This document shows, in pieces, positions 31,234 through 38,765 of a DNA stretch of 43,283 bases (its first letter is position 1; the number at the start of each line of letters is the position of its first letter). The DNA is taken from contig CASFXA010000017.1 in NCBI GenBank assembly GCA_949298535.1, forward strand, positions 1-43,283, written 5' to 3'. The notes under the pieces are model-generated. The model was given only the letters and a program-made list of their open reading frames with translations, was not told the DNA's origin and searched no databases. This DNA is from an uncultured Oscillospiraceae bacterium (lineage in GTDB: Bacteria; Bacillota; Clostridia; Oscillospirales; Ruminococcaceae). The translations under genes and the position numbers were made by a program.

Positions 31234-31992
31234 TCAGCCTTTTCCCTTTTTCTGCACCTTTTCCCGCACATAGATGGTTTTTCCTCCGCCCTCCTGCCGG
31301 CCCACTGTTTTGATCTCGAAGGTATTGAGAGAATTGATCAGACGGGTCAATTTTTTAAAGCCGTAGTTTCGCACGTCAAAATCCGGATACCGCTTTATCA
31401 GCAGATTGCCAATATCGCTGACTGTGGCCCAGCCCTCGTCGTCGGAGGTCTCATCCACAATATTCCGGATCACCTTGGACAGATCCTTCACCGGGATGCG
31501 CCCCTGCACCTCCTCCACCGGAGTCTGGGGCGCCTCCCCGGAGGCGGGAACAGTCTCCCGCCCCAACACCTCCAGATAGGTAAATTTATTGCAGGCGGCC
31601 ACAAAAGGGCTGGGGGTTTTCTTTTCGCCCATGCCGATGACATACATCCCTGCCTCCCGCAGACGGGAAGCCAGGCGGGTAAAGTCGCTGTCGCTGGAAA
31701 CGATGCAGAACCCTTCCACATTGCCGGTGTATAAAATGTCCATCGCGTCAATAATCATCGCTGAATCGGTGGCGTTTTTCCCTACTGTATAACTGTACTG
31801 CTGGATCGGGGTGATGGAATGGTCCAGCAGCACCCCCTTCCAGGAGCCTAAAGCCGGCTTGGTCCAATCTCCATAGATCCGTTTATAGGTGATGGTCCCT
31901 TCCGTTGCCAGCTCATCCAAAATAAATTGGATATACTTTTCCGAAACATTATCGGCGTCGATAAGCACTGCAAAGCGATGATCCGCAGACAT
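31234..31992 (-). CDS. NYN (PIN-like RNase) domain protein with OST-HTH/LOTUS domain
   Basis: A 252-residue cytoplasmic protein. The NYN domain (about 6-140) has the acidic residues of a metal-dependent nuclease: LIDADN (Asp12, Asp14), KNATDSAMIIDAMD (Asp76) and SSDSDF (Asp101/103). A linker and a LOTUS/OST-HTH domain (about 165-245, VKDLSKVIRNIVDE to KTIYVRE) follow; LOTUS domains bind RNA, notably G-quadruplex RNA. Together they suggest an RNA-cutting or RNA-handling protein. It is the first gene of an operon with the LysR regulator. The RNA target is unknown. Confidence 0.9.
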   Translation of the reverse strand: MSADHRFAVLIDADNVSEKYIQFILDELATEGTITYKRIYGDWTKPALGSWKGVLLDHSITPIQQYSYTVGKNATDSAMIIDAMDILYTGNVEGFCIVSSDSDFTRLASRLREAGMYVIGMGEKKTPSPFVAACNKFTYLEVLGRETVPASGEAPQTPVEEVQGRIPVKDLSKVIRNIVDETSDDEGWATVSDIGNLLIKRYPDFDVRNYGFKKLTRLINSLNTFEIKTVGRQEGGGKTIYVREKVQKKGKG

Positions 31993-32211: not shown

Positions 32212-32258
32212 CCTAAAAATCAAACGCCTCCGAACGACTTTTCATCGTCCGAAGGCGT
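32212..32258 (-). terminator. terminator after the CinA-sortase gene
   Basis: Minus strand 14-bp stem (32258-32245 with 32237-32224, one G-U/mismatch zone), 7-base loop, then TTGATTTTTA. It lies just past the stop at 32272 and closes the cysteine desulfurase-thiI-cinA/srtB operon. Confidence 0.85.
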
Positions 32259-32271
32259 CAAAATTTATCTT

Positions 32272-35200
32272 TTATCCTCTTGGGCCTCCGTGGCCAGGAC
32301 CCGCTGCAGCAGGGCCCTGCTCCGGAACGGGGACTTCACTTTCCGGTGTTGGTTCCTCCCCGTCAGGACCTGGCGGCAAAGGGGCCGCGTCAGAATCACT
32401 GCTCTGGGAGCTGGGAAGTTCCTCCTCAGAAGAGGTGCTGCTGGAGGAGGAACTGGAGCTGCTTTGAGAGCTGGAGCTACCGGAGGAAGAACTGGAACCG
32501 CCCTGAGAACTGGAACTGCTGGAAGGGCTGGAGCTGGAACCGCTGGAACTGGAACTGCTGGGCAGAGACGTCTCCCCGCTTGAAGACGCGCTGCTGGATG
32601 ATGACGAACCGGAACTGCTGGGGCTGGAACTACTGGAAGGGCTGGAACTACTGGAAGGGCTGGAGCTGCTGGAAGGGCTGGAGCTGCTGGAGCTGGAGGA
32701 AGGCAGGGAACCGGGGGAAGAGGACTGCTGAAGCTCCTTGATAATCTGTTGTGTTTCATCCCAGCTATGGGAATCCCACACATCCTCCTGGGAGAATCCG
32801 GCATCGGAGACGATCTTTTTCCGCTCCGCAATCAGGGAGGACATCTTGCTGTAGGAAAATCCCCGTTCGCTCTCGTTGAGCCACATCCGGTTGGACTGAT
32901 ACAGATCCTCCCGGCGGGCCTCATCAATAGCCGCGCTGATCTCCGCCCAAGTGCCGTACTGGTCGGAATCCACTCCCCACTCTCTGGCCAATTCCTTGCG
33001 GTCTTTCATCAGATTTTCCAAATCCCGTACGGAAAGTCCAGAGTCGCCGCTGTCCAGCCACTTGGGATTATCTTTAATCAATTGCTCCGCTTCATTTCCC
33101 GCAGAGGGAGATGAACCAGAGGATGTACTGGAGGAGCCGGAGGAACTGGAAGGCAGCTGCGCCCCATATTCCTCCATCCGCTCCTCAATGAGAGCCTCGA
33201 TGCGGCTCCATCTGCCGGCGGAATAGATCTCACTGTCGGTGAGCCACTCCTCCGCCAGGCTCCGCCGCTCTTCCGCCAGACTCAAACGCTTTGAGAGGGA
33301 CAGGTCCTGCTCGCTGGAGGACAGGTAGAGGCGGAACATCTCCTGCCGCTGCTCGATGAGATAGAGCATACTGTCCAGCGACAGCTGTGACTGCTCATCG
33401 CTGGTGAGATACTTCTGGGCGTCCTGCTGCCGCTGAGCGGACAGGGTTGCCTGCTCCTCCGCGGACAGACCGTTTTTCTCCTCATCAGTGAGCCATTTCC
33501 CGCTGCTGGCGGCCGCGGAGGCAGCTGCCTGCTCCTCCGCCTGCCGTTCCGATTCCTGAGCCTTGGAGATGGCGGCATACCATTCGGCGGGCATCACCGG
33601 ATTGTAGTTGATGGTTGCTCCGGCGGTATCCACCTCTGTGCTTTCCCCATCCCGCACCTTCCGGGCAAACACCACAAAACGGGCGATCCGTTCGCCGCTC
33701 TCGCTGCGGAAGGAATAATCGCAGGTGGACAACGTGAGAAGCAAGTCGCTGGGCAGCACATCCACGGTGGTATTGATGAGGCTGCGTTCCTTGATCTGAT
33801 TGACATAGTTCATCAGATCCTCGTCGCTGTCCTTCTCAATAAAGTTGTGGTAATTGAAATCCGGATCATCCTTTTTACACACCACAATGCCGAAAATCTT
33901 GTAGGTGCCGGTGTAATAAACACTGTCATACTGCACCAGGGGATGTTCCCGGTAGTAAGAGATGGACTTATAGTTGAGCAGTTCTCCAAACATCTGTCCG
34001 TCATTCATGTTATGGGCATAAATGACGGTATTGGTGCTGGGGGCCCGCTGATCCACCCGGAAGTCCACAAAGGGAACGCCATGGTTGTTGCTGGCCCGGG
34101 TGAAGTCCCGCCGTTCATAATAGCTATTATCCACCGTCTGCACCACGGCATAGTCCACCTGAGTGTCCTCAATTTTGATCCATCCGGCGATGTCCTCGTT
34201 CTGCGCATACAGATTTGCGAATTTGGGCAGATAAGCCGCAGGATACCCGTCAATCATCGCGGCATCGGAAGCGGTGATGTCGTCGCTGATAAGCCCGCGA
34301 AGCTCTTCCGACAGCTTGCGGTTGTTGTACCGCTCCAGGTAAACGCTTCCGATATACACCAGACAGCTGAGAAAGACCGCCAGACACACCGCCACCGCAA
34401 TCACCCGGATCTTATCGTTGGAGGTGAGCTTTCCTGCCCGAAACCGCTGCATCAGGCTGGTTTTTTCTGTGGGTTTTTCTTCCATTTGGGAGGCATCCCT
34501 CTCCTTACTGGCTCCAGCCTTTTTCCCAAGGCCAAAGCGGGATTGGGCCAAATGAAAAACGCCCTGAAACAGCGGCGCCTTTGCCCTGCCGTTTCCAACC
34601 TTCAGCGCTTCCTCCGCCGGGACGCCGCCTGGCATCTGCTCCCCCTGCACGCCATAGAGGCGCAGCATATTCAGCGCGTGGAGAACCGCAATCTCCCGTT
34701 GCTCTTCCCCGTCTCCATCCCCCAGCCGCAGCTGACGCCGCCAAACCTGTTCCCCGTTGGTCAGGGCCAGATAAACCACCCCCGACGGTTTGGAGGGATC
34801 GGCAGATTTGCCCACCGAAGCGGTGATGGAAATGCCCAATGAAGACCCTGCCGCTTGACGGGCTTTGAGCGCCATGGCGGCAGCGGCCTGGCGGCTGATG
34901 GTTCCGCAGGAGGACAGCAATTTTTTGGAAATATCCAGCGTTTCCAATTTGGCTCGATTATAGAATACCCCGGAAACGCCGTCTAAAACCCGTCCGCTGT
35001 CAGGAAGCTGAAGAATTTTTTGGCTGAGCAACCCGCCGGTGCCAGATTCCGCCACCGCGATGGTCAAGCCCGCTCCGGCAAGGACCTCCCAAACAGCGGC
35101 AGCCATGGACTGCCGTTTGCTGCTGTAAAGACAAGGGCCCAGCGCCTCAGCCAGCTTTTCATACAGACGATCCAGCTTCTCCTCCGCCTGCTGGCGGCTG

Positions 35201-35919
35201 CTGCCTCCCGTCTCGGCAGTGATTTCATAATCTCCCGCTGTATACCGATAGTCCACCCGGGGATCCTCCAGGCGGAGAAAGGGTTCCAGCAGCTGGGCGA
35301 CGGATTTGCTCCCCACCTCTGCTGCCTTCAGGGTCATCCGCACCGCTGTGGGGCCGCCGTCCTTCTCTATAGGGCGCTGGCGATCCCGAAGCATATTGGA
35401 AAAACGAACCAGCAGCTGCTCCACGTCATGATTAAACACCAGATGCAGCTCGCTGGGGCTGGCAGGCAGCACCAGCAGCATCTGCTGCCTGGCCGCCAGC
35501 ACATATCCCTGCACAAACCCGCTGCTGTTGGGCAGCAGCAGCGCGCTCTGAGGAAGCCGCGCGTAACATTCCAGTTCTTCCGGAGAAATTTCCCCGCCGG
35601 TGCGCTGCAGATGTTCCTGCACCAAAGACAGCGCGGTTTTATTCACCTTTGTCTCCAGATGGAGACCCCGGGCCACCACCTGGCAAACCGCTGCCGCCGC
35701 CTGGGGCTGAGGAGCGGTGAGCAGCACCACCAGCTGTGTGTGACGGGAACAGGTCCGCACCTGCTCAAAAAGTTCCTCCCCGTCAGCGGCGGATACCGCC
35801 GTCCCGTCAGCCTGAATCTTCAGCCGCTCCAACGCCTGATGGAGATAAGTCATACTGGCCTGGAAAAAATCGCCGTATGCTGCGGCGTCTCCCACGGCCA
35901 GCAAAACTGCTTTCATCAA
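32272..35919 (-). CDS. CinA-class B sortase fusion protein with helical repeats and Ser-rich tail
   Basis: A single uninterrupted 1215-codon frame. Residues 1-170: CinA N-terminal molybdopterin-binding-like domain (KAVLLAVGD, NSSGFVQGY, LPASPSELHLVFNHDVE). 272-423: CinA C-terminal deamidase-like domain (AVAESGTGGLLSQKILQLP, VFYNRAKLETL). 504-526: one membrane helix after a basic stretch, so CinA is cytoplasmic. 555-755: class B sortase with NNHGVPFVDFR, His636 (IYAHNMNDG), Cys733 (TLSTC) and Arg747 (RFVVFAR), all intact. 805-1060: about seven ~28-residue helical repeats. 1066-1170: serine-rich tail, then a Pro/Gly end. The CinA motifs are eroded (ESGTGG for ESCTGG; no GPGG). No LPXTG-like substrate is in the window. 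Last gene behind thiI (27 bases). Confidence 0.92.
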   Translation of the reverse strand: MMKAVLLAVGDAAAYGDFFQASMTYLHQALERLKIQADGTAVSAADGEELFEQVRTCSRHTQLVVLLTAPQPQAAAAVCQVVARGLHLETKVNKTALSLVQEHLQRTGGEISPEELECYARLPQSALLLPNSSGFVQGYVLAARQQMLLVLPASPSELHLVFNHDVEQLLVRFSNMLRDRQRPIEKDGGPTAVRMTLKAAEVGSKSVAQLLEPFLRLEDPRVDYRYTAGDYEITAETGGSSRQQAEEKLDRLYEKLAEALGPCLYSSKRQSMAAAVWEVLAGAGLTIAVAESGTGGLLSQKILQLPDSGRVLDGVSGVFYNRAKLETLDISKKLLSSCGTISRQAAAAMALKARQAAGSSLGISITASVGKSADPSKPSGVVYLALTNGEQVWRRQLRLGDGDGEEQREIAVLHALNMLRLYGVQGEQMPGGVPAEEALKVGNGRAKAPLFQGVFHLAQSRFGLGKKAGASKERDASQMEEKPTEKTSLMQRFRAGKLTSNDKIRVIAVAVCLAVFLSCLVYIGSVYLERYNNRKLSEELRGLISDDITASDAAMIDGYPAAYLPKFANLYAQNEDIAGWIKIEDTQVDYAVVQTVDNSYYERRDFTRASNNHGVPFVDFRVDQRAPSTNTVIYAHNMNDGQMFGELLNYKSISYYREHPLVQYDSVYYTGTYKIFGIVVCKKDDPDFNYHNFIEKDSDEDLMNYVNQIKERSLINTTVDVLPSDLLLTLSTCDYSFRSESGERIARFVVFARKVRDGESTEVDTAGATINYNPVMPAEWYAAISKAQESERQAEEQAAASAAASSGKWLTDEEKNGLSAEEQATLSAQRQQDAQKYLTSDEQSQLSLDSMLYLIEQRQEMFRLYLSSSEQDLSLSKRLSLAEERRSLAEEWLTDSEIYSAGRWSRIEALIEERMEEYGAQLPSSSSGSSSTSSGSSPSAGNEAEQLIKDNPKWLDSGDSGLSVRDLENLMKDRKELAREWGVDSDQYGTWAEISAAIDEARREDLYQSNRMWLNESERGFSYSKMSSLIAERKKIVSDAGFSQEDVWDSHSWDETQQIIKELQQSSSPGSLPSSSSSSSSPSSSSSPSSSSSPSSSSSPSSSGSSSSSSASSSGETSLPSSSSSSGSSSSPSSSSSSQGGSSSSSGSSSSQSSSSSSSSSTSSEEELPSSQSSDSDAAPLPPGPDGEEPTPESEVPVPEQGPAAAGPGHGGPRG
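32623..32694 (-). repeat. four tandem 18-bp repeats coding SPSSSS units
   Basis: Four head-to-tail 18-bp units (32623-32640, 32641-32658, 32659-32676, 32677-32694) encode Pro-Ser blocks in the tail of the CinA-sortase protein. The units keep the reading frame, so slippage would change tail length without breaking the gene. Confidence 0.8.
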
Positions 35920-35946
35920 TTTGTTTTCCTCCCTTTTTCCTTGGGG

Positions 35947-37146
35947 TCAGATTTCACGATAGCCGCTGTAGCGGCGGGACAAAACCACCAGCTCCGCCTC
36001 GTCCACCGCCCGCTGAAACAGCTCCGGCTCCAGCGCCATCTTTTCCTCGATGGCCGATACATCCGCCGGACGGGGCTTGGTTTTGGGATGCCGTGGGGTA
36101 AAGACGGTGCAGCAATCCTCATAAGGGAGGATGGAGGTGTCGAAGGTATCGATCTTCCGGGCAATGCGGATGATCTCCTCCTTGTCCATGCCGATGAGGG
36201 GCCGCAGCACCGGCAGTTCTGTCACCCCATCGGTGCAGGCCAGCGCCGGCAGGGTCTGACTGGCTACCTGGGCGAGGCTTTCCCCGGTGATCAGGCCGCC
36301 ACATTCCTCCCGCCGGGCAATGGCCCCGGCAATGCGCATCATGGCCCGGCGCATCAGCAGGGTGAAGTAATCCTCCGGGCCCCGCTGCCGCAGCTGTTCC
36401 TGAATTTCGGTGAAGGGCACCACAAACAGCCGGATTTTACCGGTATAGGGGAGCAGCTTTTCTCCCAAAGAAATCACCTTCTGCCGGGCCCGGTCACTGG
36501 TGTAGGGAGGACTGGCGAAGTGAATGGCGATCAGCTCCAGCCCCCGCTTGGCCATCATGTAGCCCGCCACCGGGCTGTCAATGCCCCCGGAAAGGAGCAG
36601 CGCCGCCCGGCCGGAGGTGCCCACCGGCATCCCCCCTGCGCCAGGCAATTGATCGGTATGTACATAAGCGGCGGTTTCCCGGATCTCCACCGTCACGGTG
36701 ACATCAGGATGCTCCACATCCACCCGCAGATGGGGAAACGCCTCCAGCAGCTCTCCCCCCAGCTCCCGGCAAATCTCCGGAGAGGTCATGGGGAACAGCT
36801 TATCCGCCCGCTTCGCCTCCACCTTGAAGGTGCGGGCTTCCTCCAGGGCCGGAGCCAGATATTCCCGGCTTTTGGCGCAGATGTCCTCAAAATTTTTCTC
36901 CACAATGCAGGCTCTGGTCAGCGCCGCGATACCGAACACCGTTTGAAGGCGGCTGACCAGCTGGTCCATGTCCACATCTTCCCTCTGAGGCTCCACATAA
37001 AGGGTGGACTGCTTCTTCCAGATGTGGAAAGGCCCCAGATCTTCAATGCGCCGCTTCATATTCTTAATCATCACGTCCTCAAAATTGTGGCGGTTCAGCC
37101 CCTTGAGGACCACTTCTCCGCTTTTCAGCAGGACCAGTTCCTTCAT
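35947..37146 (-). CDS. thiI: tRNA 4-thiouridine sulfurtransferase ThiI
   Basis: Makes s4U8 in tRNA (and can serve thiazole synthesis) by adenylating the uridine and taking sulfur from a cysteine desulfurase. It has 399 residues. A ferredoxin-like/THUMP region fills about 1-165 (GIAALTRACIVEKNFEDI, RTFKVEAKRADK). The PP-loop SGGIDSPVAGYMM starts at 186 and GESLAQVASQT follows. It ends after CCTVFTPRHPKTKP, without the rhodanese domain of the E. coli protein, as in most Firmicutes. The adjacent desulfurase gene, 43 bases upstream, parallels the B. subtilis NifZ-ThiI pair. Confidence 0.96.
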   Translation of the reverse strand: MKELVLLKSGEVVLKGLNRHNFEDVMIKNMKRRIEDLGPFHIWKKQSTLYVEPQREDVDMDQLVSRLQTVFGIAALTRACIVEKNFEDICAKSREYLAPALEEARTFKVEAKRADKLFPMTSPEICRELGGELLEAFPHLRVDVEHPDVTVTVEIRETAAYVHTDQLPGAGGMPVGTSGRAALLLSGGIDSPVAGYMMAKRGLELIAIHFASPPYTSDRARQKVISLGEKLLPYTGKIRLFVVPFTEIQEQLRQRGPEDYFTLLMRRAMMRIAGAIARREECGGLITGESLAQVASQTLPALACTDGVTELPVLRPLIGMDKEEIIRIARKIDTFDTSILPYEDCCTVFTPRHPKTKPRPADVSAIEEKMALEPELFQRAVDEAELVVLSRRYSGYREI

Positions 37147-37189
37147 CCCTTTTCTCTCCTCCATAACGCCGGTAACGGCGGATTCTTTC

Positions 37190-38329
37190 TCAGGGCCGCA
37201 CCCGGGCGATCTCCCGGGCTCCTCTGGCCAGACAGGCGCAGAAATGTTCCACGTCCTCCCGGGTGTTGTCCCGGCACAGGCTCACCCGTACGGCGCTGTC
37301 CACCCGTTCCAACGGCAGGCCCATAGCGGTGAGAACATGGCTTCGCGCTCCTTTGGAACAGGCGGAGCCGCTGGAAACATAAATCCCAAATTGTTCCAGA
37401 TAGTGGATCATCACCTCGGAGCGGATGCCGGGAACAGACAGGTTCGTAATATAAGGTGCGCCATCCAGCGGGGAATTGATGCATACGCCGGGAATTTCCC
37501 CGCATCTTTCCAGCAAAAGCTGCCGCAGCTCCTGATAGCGGGCCATATGGTTCTTCTGCCCAGCCCAGATCTCCTCCGCAGCCAAACCAAACCCGCAGAT
37601 GCCCGGAACGTTCTCCGTGCCGGGATGAAAACCCTGTTCCTGGGGGGAGCCGTAATAGAGGGGCTGCACCCGGACACCTTTGCGGTGATACAAAGCCGCC
37701 ACCCCCTTGGGGCCATGGATCTTGTGGCCGCTGATGGTCACCAGATCCAGCTTCCAGCTCTCGGGGGCGATGGGCAGCCGCCCAAAGCTCTGGACGCAAT
37801 CCCCATGGACCAGCACTTTGGGGTTGTTCCGCTTGGCCAGCCGGGCAATGGTCCGCAGGTCGTTGACGGCGCCGGTTTCACTGTTGACGTGCATCACCGA
37901 CACCAGCACGGTGTTCTCATCCACCTGGGCCGCCACCTCCTGGGGATCCAAAGAGCCGTCAGGCCGGGGGGCCACCCGCACCACCTGAAACCCTTCCTTC
38001 TCCAGCTGCGCCGCAGCGGCCAGCAGGGAATCATGCTCCACCGCCGTGGTCACCACCTTGCGCCCTCCATGCCTGTTGGCCCGGACGCCTCCCAAGATCG
38101 CAAGATTATTGGCCTCGCTGCCGCAGGAGGTGAAAGCGATCTCCTCCCGCCGGGCTCCCAGCACCGCCGCCACCTGTTCCCTGGCGGCGGTCATCCGCTG
38201 TTCCGCCAAAAAACCCTTTCGGTGCAGGGAGGACGGATTGCCGTATTCCTCGGTCATCATATGGTGTATCAGCGCCGCTACCGACTCAGACACCCTGGTG
38301 GTGGCGCTGTTATCCAGATAAGTCTCCAC
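37190..38329 (-). CDS. cysteine desulfurase (NifS/IscS family; NifZ-like by context)
   Basis: PLP enzyme of 379 residues that takes sulfur from cysteine and holds it as a persulfide. Seen: YLDNSATTRVSESV at the start, the cofactor histidine in TTAVEHDSLL, the PLP lysine in ISGHKIHGPKG, the catalytic cysteine loop SSGSACSKGARSHVL, and VRVSLCRDNT near the end. The start is GTG at 38329 (VETYLDNS), where GGGAAG lies at suitable distance; an earlier TTG has no site. Next to thiI, so its main job is likely sulfur supply for tRNA thiolation. First gene of a three-gene operon. Confidence 0.94.
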   Translation of the reverse strand: METYLDNSATTRVSESVAALIHHMMTEEYGNPSSLHRKGFLAEQRMTAAREQVAAVLGARREEIAFTSCGSEANNLAILGGVRANRHGGRKVVTTAVEHDSLLAAAAQLEKEGFQVVRVAPRPDGSLDPQEVAAQVDENTVLVSVMHVNSETGAVNDLRTIARLAKRNNPKVLVHGDCVQSFGRLPIAPESWKLDLVTISGHKIHGPKGVAALYHRKGVRVQPLYYGSPQEQGFHPGTENVPGICGFGLAAEEIWAGQKNHMARYQELRQLLLERCGEIPGVCINSPLDGAPYITNLSVPGIRSEVMIHYLEQFGIYVSSGSACSKGARSHVLTAMGLPLERVDSAVRVSLCRDNTREDVEHFCACLARGAREIARVRP

Positions 38330-38765
38330 TGCCTTTCTTCCCTTCCCGGACAGCAGCTCCGGCTGCCGCCGCTGTATTGTTGGACCCCCTGGGCCCAAAC
38401 CCAATCAATGACATTTTATTTTAGCATAAAAACCGCCTGCTGTGTTGATTTTCATGATTTGTTTACAGTTTTTCTCCCACCTGACCTTTTCCGTCTCCCT
38501 CTTCTCCCCTGATTTTGTCACAATCACTTCTTTTTAAGGGATTTTTACCAAATCGATCTTCCTTTTAACCGATAAAAGCCTGTTTCAAACCCTTCATTTG
38601 GAACCATCAAAACAGCGGGCGGGAGGAAAATTCAGAAAAATCTGCCGGAAGTCTTTCCATTTTTCTCTTTTTTGGGTATGATAATACAGAAACGGGGAAA
38701 AAGGAACCATCTTTTTTCTCCAAAATCTGTAGCCGCACTGGCGGCGGAATGGAAGTTTTGGCAAT
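38330..38765. other. divergent intergenic region, desulfurase operon / peptide-binding protein
   Basis: On the minus strand TGCTAAAAT (38426-38418) is a likely extended -10 for the desulfurase-thiI operon, about 90 bases before its GTG. On the plus strand TATGATAAT near 38677-38685 is a candidate -10 for the peptide-binding protein gene. No other feature or credible ORF is seen. Confidence 0.45.

Follow-up and report, generated by a model that had tools for sequence, protein, structure and literature searches.

A CinA fold and a class B sortase share a single open frame

We analysed a 43,283-nucleotide stretch of DNA from an uncultured gut bacterium of the Oscillospiraceae (assembly GCA_949298535.1, contig CASFXA010000017.1; hereafter the window), in which one minus-strand gene encodes a degenerate CinA part, a transmembrane helix, a class B sortase domain and a long tail in a single frame of 1215 amino acids. 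The frame is stop-free from a TTG at 35919 (alternative ATG at 35916) to the stop codon at 32274-32272. An earlier sequence-only reading had given these coordinates correctly, without the strand, and its central claim, a single frame in which one helix connects a CinA fold with a class B sortase, was borne out by profiles, hydropathy and structure comparison with Foldseek. Three profiles passed their cut-offs, namely Pfam CinA PF02464 (104.4 bits, cut-off 23.5, residues 270-420), Pfam Sortase PF04203 (39.1 bits, cut-off 26.6, residues 581-755) and the NCBIfam class B sortase model TIGR03064 (159.5 bits, cut-off 153.75). Three others fell below theirs: Pfam CinA_KH (14.1 bits, cut-off 27) and MoCF_biosynth (13.5 bits, cut-off 26.6), and the NCBIfam full-length CinA model PRK00549, which matched residues 2-420 end to end with 174.2 bits (cut-off 379). 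The structure predicted from a 10-row alignment (mean predicted local distance difference test score, pLDDT, 68; predicted template-modelling score, pTM, 0.39) matched both Thermus CinA 4ct8 (E 1.1e-28) and Staphylococcus aureus SrtB 4lfd (E 7e-8) in Foldseek; pLDDT was mostly 70-94 in the CinA part, with low stretches at 171-190, 301-340 and 371-380, and low in the sortase part, with blocks of 32-84.

The two halves are separated by a strong hydrophobic segment (residues 506-524) with a net charge of +4 before it and 0 after it, and a hydrophobic segment lies at the expected place ahead of the outer part in all 24 proteins scanned, so that the sortase domain is expected to lie outside and the CinA part in the cytosol. 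A second, weaker segment occurs inside the CinA part of the window protein (272-290) and inside that of its Angelakisella massiliensis counterpart. The catalytic triad named in the sequence-only reading is present (His636, Cys733 within TLSTC, and Arg747), and the equivalent His, Cys and Arg are intact in 8/8 Angelakisella-type rows. Class B sortases carry out transpeptidation of an NPxTN-like substrate, and the window sortase is expected to be active as an outer transpeptidase that anchors a substrate.

By its fold, as judged from sequence, its His/Cys/Arg triad and its single helix on the N-terminal side, the protein resembles other class B sortases (TIGR03064; SrtB chains such as 1ng5 and 1rz2). 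Unlike them, it carries about 500 cytosolic residues of CinA fold ahead of the helix and a tail of about 440 residues after the sortase. With bifunctional CinA (COG1058-KH-PncC; Thermus 4ct8, as described in an excerpt of PMC4246079) it shares domain order and predicted fold, and it differs in being membrane-tethered, in having lost most Mg/ADP-ribose ligands and the nicotinamide mononucleotide (NMN) phosphate clamp, and in scoring below the PRK00549 cut-off.

The gene reads as the last of a three-gene run of a NifS/IscS-type desulfurase gene, thiI and the fusion, because a GGGAGG motif lies 5' of its start and a terminator-like hairpin 3' of its stop (Table 1; promoter and terminator assignments are consensus matches only). 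The thiI stop is separated from the TTG by 27 nt. Downstream, at 31234-31992 on the minus strand, lies a gene for an NYN nuclease-like protein with an OST-HTH/LOTUS domain, and such a gene also adjoins the fusion in A. massiliensis (L038).

Table 1. Features of the fusion gene, its protein domains and its neighbours in the window
Feature	Position	Strand	Basis or remark
Fusion gene: degenerate CinA, transmembrane helix, class B sortase, tail	32272..35919	-	open frame; Pfam and NCBIfam
Shine-Dalgarno-like GGGAGG	35928..35933	-	8 nt ahead of TTG, 11 nt ahead of ATG; consensus match
COG1058/MoCF-like domain, residues 1-175	35395..35919	-	E12, D45, D76 equivalents are Ala
KH-like CinA domain, about residues 190-268	35116..35352	-	Ser204 replaces Glu of GIGES; below cut-off in Pfam
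PncC/CinA C-terminal domain, residues 270-423	34651..35112	-	K324, T366 kept; Y296 to F319, R377 to G404
Cytoplasmic linker (predicted), residues 424-500	34420..34650	-	weakly constrained, dN/dS 0.33
Transmembrane helix, residues 506-524	34348..34404	-	hydropathy
Class B sortase domain, about residues 563-756	33652..34233	-	His636, Cys733, Arg747; profiles
Repeat-rich tail, residues 781-1060	32740..33579	-	all Pfam matches below cut-off or absent; helical on visual inspection only
Ser/Pro-rich C-terminal stretch, residues 1061-1215	32275..32739	-	dN/dS 0.456
Terminator-like hairpin	32223..32259	-	16 pairs, T-rich tail; directly 3' of fusion stop
thiI	35947..37164	-	TIGR00342, 378 bits (cut-off 264.5); directly upstream of fusion
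NifS/IscS-type cysteine desulfurase gene	37190..38404	-	Pfam Aminotran_5 above cut-off; best NCBIfam models below theirs

The fused CinA has lost most known catalytic residues and seems to be under purifying selection

The name of CinA connects it with competence and DNA damage, and assays connect it with the recycling of nicotinamide adenine dinucleotide (NAD); we know of no link between CinA and the cell surface. To read its active sites, we put CinAs of the fused, adjacent and canonical kinds into one alignment with that of Thermus, taking the residues as they are named in an excerpt of PMC4246079. The adenosine diphosphate (ADP) ribose pyrophosphatase set E12, D45, D76 and E187 reads Ala, Ala, Ala and Ser in the window protein, with E156 kept, and the NMN deamidase set Y296, K301, T340 and R377 reads F/K/T/G, with two of four kept and both residues of the phosphate clamp (Y296/R377) replaced. 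E291, S292, T294, K324 and T366 of the PncC pocket are still present. Among the nine fused rows of the genus (the window, L038-L044 and G007), D45 and D76 are replaced in 9/9, E12 and Y296 in 8/9, R377 in 7/9 and E187 in 4/9. The window CinA thus appears complete in fold, as the sequence-only reading had it, and degraded in its known active sites, and on residue evidence a complete, working CinA was rejected for this protein.

The window genome encodes a second, canonical CinA (501.3 bits on PRK00549) that has all the residues read intact and adjoins a gyrase-B-like gene. Of 18 genomes whose fused or tandem CinA is degenerate, 16 were found to have a canonical second or tandem CinA: 8/9 in the genus, together with G013, G020 and G031, and the five tandem cases G017, G021, G029, G033 and G034. 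This count includes G020 although its protein lacks a sortase, G013 whose fused protein lacks a PncC domain, G017 whose tandem copy is degenerate by profile score only, and G031 whose second CinA is a PncC domain only; L045 and L046 are left out, as their genomes lay outside the search. Where the fused CinA is canonical, residues were read in 13 genomes (G010, G014, G023, G026, G032, G039, G050, G058, G064, G073, G083, G088 and G101); each has one PF02464 match, and no second CinA was found in any. All 13 of these fusions keep Y296, K301, T340 and R377, and nine also keep E12, D45, D76 and E187; G014, G050 and G058 consist of the PncC domain only, and in G023 E12 lay beyond the frame read. On contig C226 of genome G003 one CinA match is repeated, in opposite orientation, at the two contig ends, as in a palindromic assembly.

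For the window against A. massiliensis, the ratio of non-synonymous to synonymous substitution rates (dN/dS) was estimated by the Nei-Gojobori method with 1000 bootstraps. It was 0.109 for the CinA part (bootstrap 0.077-0.153), 0.022 for the transmembrane and sortase part, the most constrained of the protein, 0.094 for the tail, 0.326 for the linker and 0.456 for the Ser-rich stretch (936 valid bootstraps). Comparison genes gave 0.087 (canonical CinA), 0.063 (ThiI) and 0.130 (NifS). Since its value lies near those of NifS and the canonical CinA, the degenerate CinA seems to be under purifying selection and to be held about as firmly as its working neighbours.

The fusion is found throughout the genus and recurs in the order

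A match over residues 1 or 2 to 780 was found in 9/10 genomes of the genus (the window's own counted), including A. massiliensis, whose record NZ_LT629945.1 holds the same single frame at 87% (query residues 1-780, the tail excluded); the tenth genome (G006, 59% complete) has a fragment at a contig end. A locus search covered residues 1-4 to 780 in 8/11 loci and 96-780 in a ninth, these 11 loci overlapping in part with the 10 genomes (L038 is G002 by coordinates). With fused forms present in other families as well, the search of related genomes found the architecture that the sequence-only reading had described, and ruled out a fusion confined to the window genome. The repeat-rich tail of the Angelakisella species has units of the W-L-T-x-x-E type in common.

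Across the order we sampled 132 Oscillospirales genomes, of which 120 had a CinA match. Besides the window, the analysis covered 117 loci, a set that excludes G116 and G156, in which CinA is split. The sortase gene is fused to cinA in 8 loci, adjacent in 12 and neither in 97, fused or adjacent cases occurring in families f1, f4, f9, f15, f23 and f24, and thiI lies upstream of cinA in 84/117. The nifS-thiI-cinA locus that holds the fusion is conserved. Flanking sequence was limited to about 1.5 kb in 14 of the loci, and some others run into a contig end, so that the counts of adjacent genes, thiI and SpoIID may be too low. In genomes outside the order, the longest CinA frame had 532 amino acids (129 genomes, 114 with a match, from a class sample of 133; frame length was the criterion), and a class-wide distribution of the fusion was rejected on this ground. 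At the same locus in G062, a 547-amino-acid frame (L171:3843-5486, minus strand) joins ThiI to a PncC-type CinA domain, and in G127 (L142:3027-4228) thiI matches fall in two overlapping frames of 212 and 195 amino acids, as after a frameshift.

On well-supported (starred) branches, the label fused must change at least six times in the sortase tree and, for fusions that keep CinA residues, at least four times in the CinA tree; in both trees G088, which is fused, clusters with G044 and G069, which are not. Given these repeated changes, a single origin is not favoured, with the qualification that the trees are unrooted, several branches are long, and label changes may be fissions, gains and losses being indistinguishable. 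All 12 degenerate CinAs lie on one side of a branch of the CinA tree (97/92), which may reflect long-branch attraction.

A non-catalytic CinA module may serve the sortase

We give about an even chance to the reading that the gene encodes a functional class B sortase carrying a retained, non-catalytic, cytosolic CinA module. The module would derive from the cinA gene that belongs to this nifS-thiI-cinA-srtB locus, and with a second, canonical CinA elsewhere covering the metabolic job, the known active sites of the fused copy could have decayed. Selection would then keep the CinA fold as a dimer-forming module, possibly with residual binding in the half-kept PncC pocket, and the dimer inside the cell would pair or position the sortase, which would anchor its substrate outside. 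Dimerisation, which we infer here together with positioning, sortase activity and localisation, is a property of Thermus CinA according to an excerpt of PMC4246079. This reading draws on the intact sortase triad and the strong constraint on the transmembrane and sortase part, the replaced CinA residues, the low dN/dS and retained fold of the CinA part, the copy numbers of canonical CinA, the fused and adjacent loci across the order, and the hydrophobic segment in all 24 proteins.

Other lineages show losses too. G035, G023, G026 and the tandem protein of G034 have other residues in place of the sortase His and Cys, and G020 has no sortase; of these, G023 and G026 retain the CinA deamidase residues and G035 retains the residues of neither half. 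Either half may therefore lose its catalytic residues, a pattern suggesting that a joined architecture spanning the membrane has value apart from any single activity, the alternative being drift of the parts.

Several observations weigh against the main reading. K301 and E156 are kept in 9/9 genus rows, T340 in 7/9 (Ser in L041, Val in G007) and E187 in 5/9, so that some binding or chemistry may remain; L039 retains R377, and G007 retains Y296, K301 and R377, without T340. No second CinA was found in G007 (92% complete) or G035 (87%). The dN/dS evidence comes from a single pair of species, was obtained with a simple method and involves a dS of about 0.9, and fusion of neighbouring genes can be neutral.

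Gating of the sortase by a nucleotide is possible, and the sequence-only reading had suggested that the CinA part could sense a nucleotide or NAD-related signal. In a ligand-gated sortase, which we consider unlikely, the remaining PncC pocket would bind a nicotinamide-like or other small molecule and signal through the helix. Purifying selection on the module fits this account, as do the five PncC residues still present in the window protein and the K301 equivalent in every genus row. The loss of the phosphate clamp speaks against it, a single helix and a weakly constrained linker of 77 residues are poorly suited to tight coupling, and the idea of an intact CinA that senses a pyridine nucleotide is weakened by the replaced active-site residues and by the canonical CinA elsewhere, E156, K301 and T340 remaining.

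We hold it less probable again that the CinA part is a passenger, tolerated and drifting after loss of a stop codon fused adjacent genes. The 12 loci with adjacent, unfused genes, the ThiI-PncC fusion and the loss of catalytic residues from each half in some lineages fit such a history. Against it stand a dN/dS far under the values for the linker and the Ser-rich stretch, the continued prediction of a CinA fold and genus-wide retention of the module. That a membrane-held PncC pocket still works as an enzyme and hydrolyses another amide seems improbable, since the Tyr/Arg pair is altered, as are the loops near G284-S286 and 341-345, and all of these vary between species of the genus, even with the catalytic Lys in 9/9 and Thr in 7/9 genus rows. 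Finally, the window genome is a 180-contig draft, and an assembly or frame artefact joining two genes is ruled out for practical purposes by the same frame in NZ_LT629945.1 and seven more genus genomes and by the fused forms in other families.

In the one paper library searched, we found no paper on a CinA-sortase pairing, and the fusion is, as far as this literature goes, undescribed. An excerpt of PMC3814617 lists cinA and the putative sortase gene ywpE separately among genes co-evolving with polC in Bacillus subtilis, and that of PMC9513430 mentions CinA and sortase apart, in an expression table and a reference. Genes that lie side by side or are joined in relatives point to an undescribed CinA-sortase link, and with a degraded CinA retained in this recurrent setting, a non-enzymatic role of CinA becomes testable. 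A sortase with a large folded cytosolic part would also offer a possible route for the cell interior to act on wall anchoring.

SpoIID proteins accompany the unit in relatives

Proteins of the SpoIID family cut or remodel wall glycan. A SpoIID gene follows in 8/20 fused or adjacent loci, and a SpoIID domain lies within the same protein in G013, G023, G026 and G035, in the tandem proteins of G029 and G034, and in G020, without a sortase. Pfam or NCBIfam confirmed SpoIID in eleven proteins (L082, L083, L089, L091, L092, L088, L093, L080, L081, L045 and L212), and the remaining SpoIID neighbours rest on a purpose-built hidden Markov model; the sortase, SpoIID and CinA models were built partly from the same proteins, whose scores are therefore given by construction. 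The Glu that we take to be catalytic is present in 15/15 aligned SpoIID domains. In relatives, SpoIID/LytB-domain proteins (TIGR02669, PF08486) adjoin the CinA/sortase unit or are part of it by fusion; unlike these fusions, the window protein has no SpoIID domain by Pfam or NCBIfam, and two SpoIID matches lie on other contigs of its genome.

Tentatively, and with more doubt than confidence, we propose a trans-envelope module that recurs in Oscillospirales, is encoded behind nifS-thiI and consists of CinA, class B sortase and SpoIID. Its cytosolic CinA or pseudo-CinA dimer would sense metabolic state or place the complex and would control wall-protein anchoring or wall cutting outside, the physical link being kept despite catalytic loss in either half.

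Variant architectures were also seen. In five loci (L091:4339-7236, L212:6409-9234, L210, L211 and L090) a second gene directly after a canonical cinA encodes a degenerate KH/PncC part and a sortase-like region; those of L091 and L212 also carry a SpoIID domain, and in L091 the sortase His and Cys are replaced. In G031 (L088:5383-8304) sortase and SpoIID are fused, and scanning with Pfam gave no match to a CinA family. The tails of L087:5202-9080 and L085:6202-8925 consist of bacterial Ig-like domains (Big_2 in four stretches and Big_9 in two).

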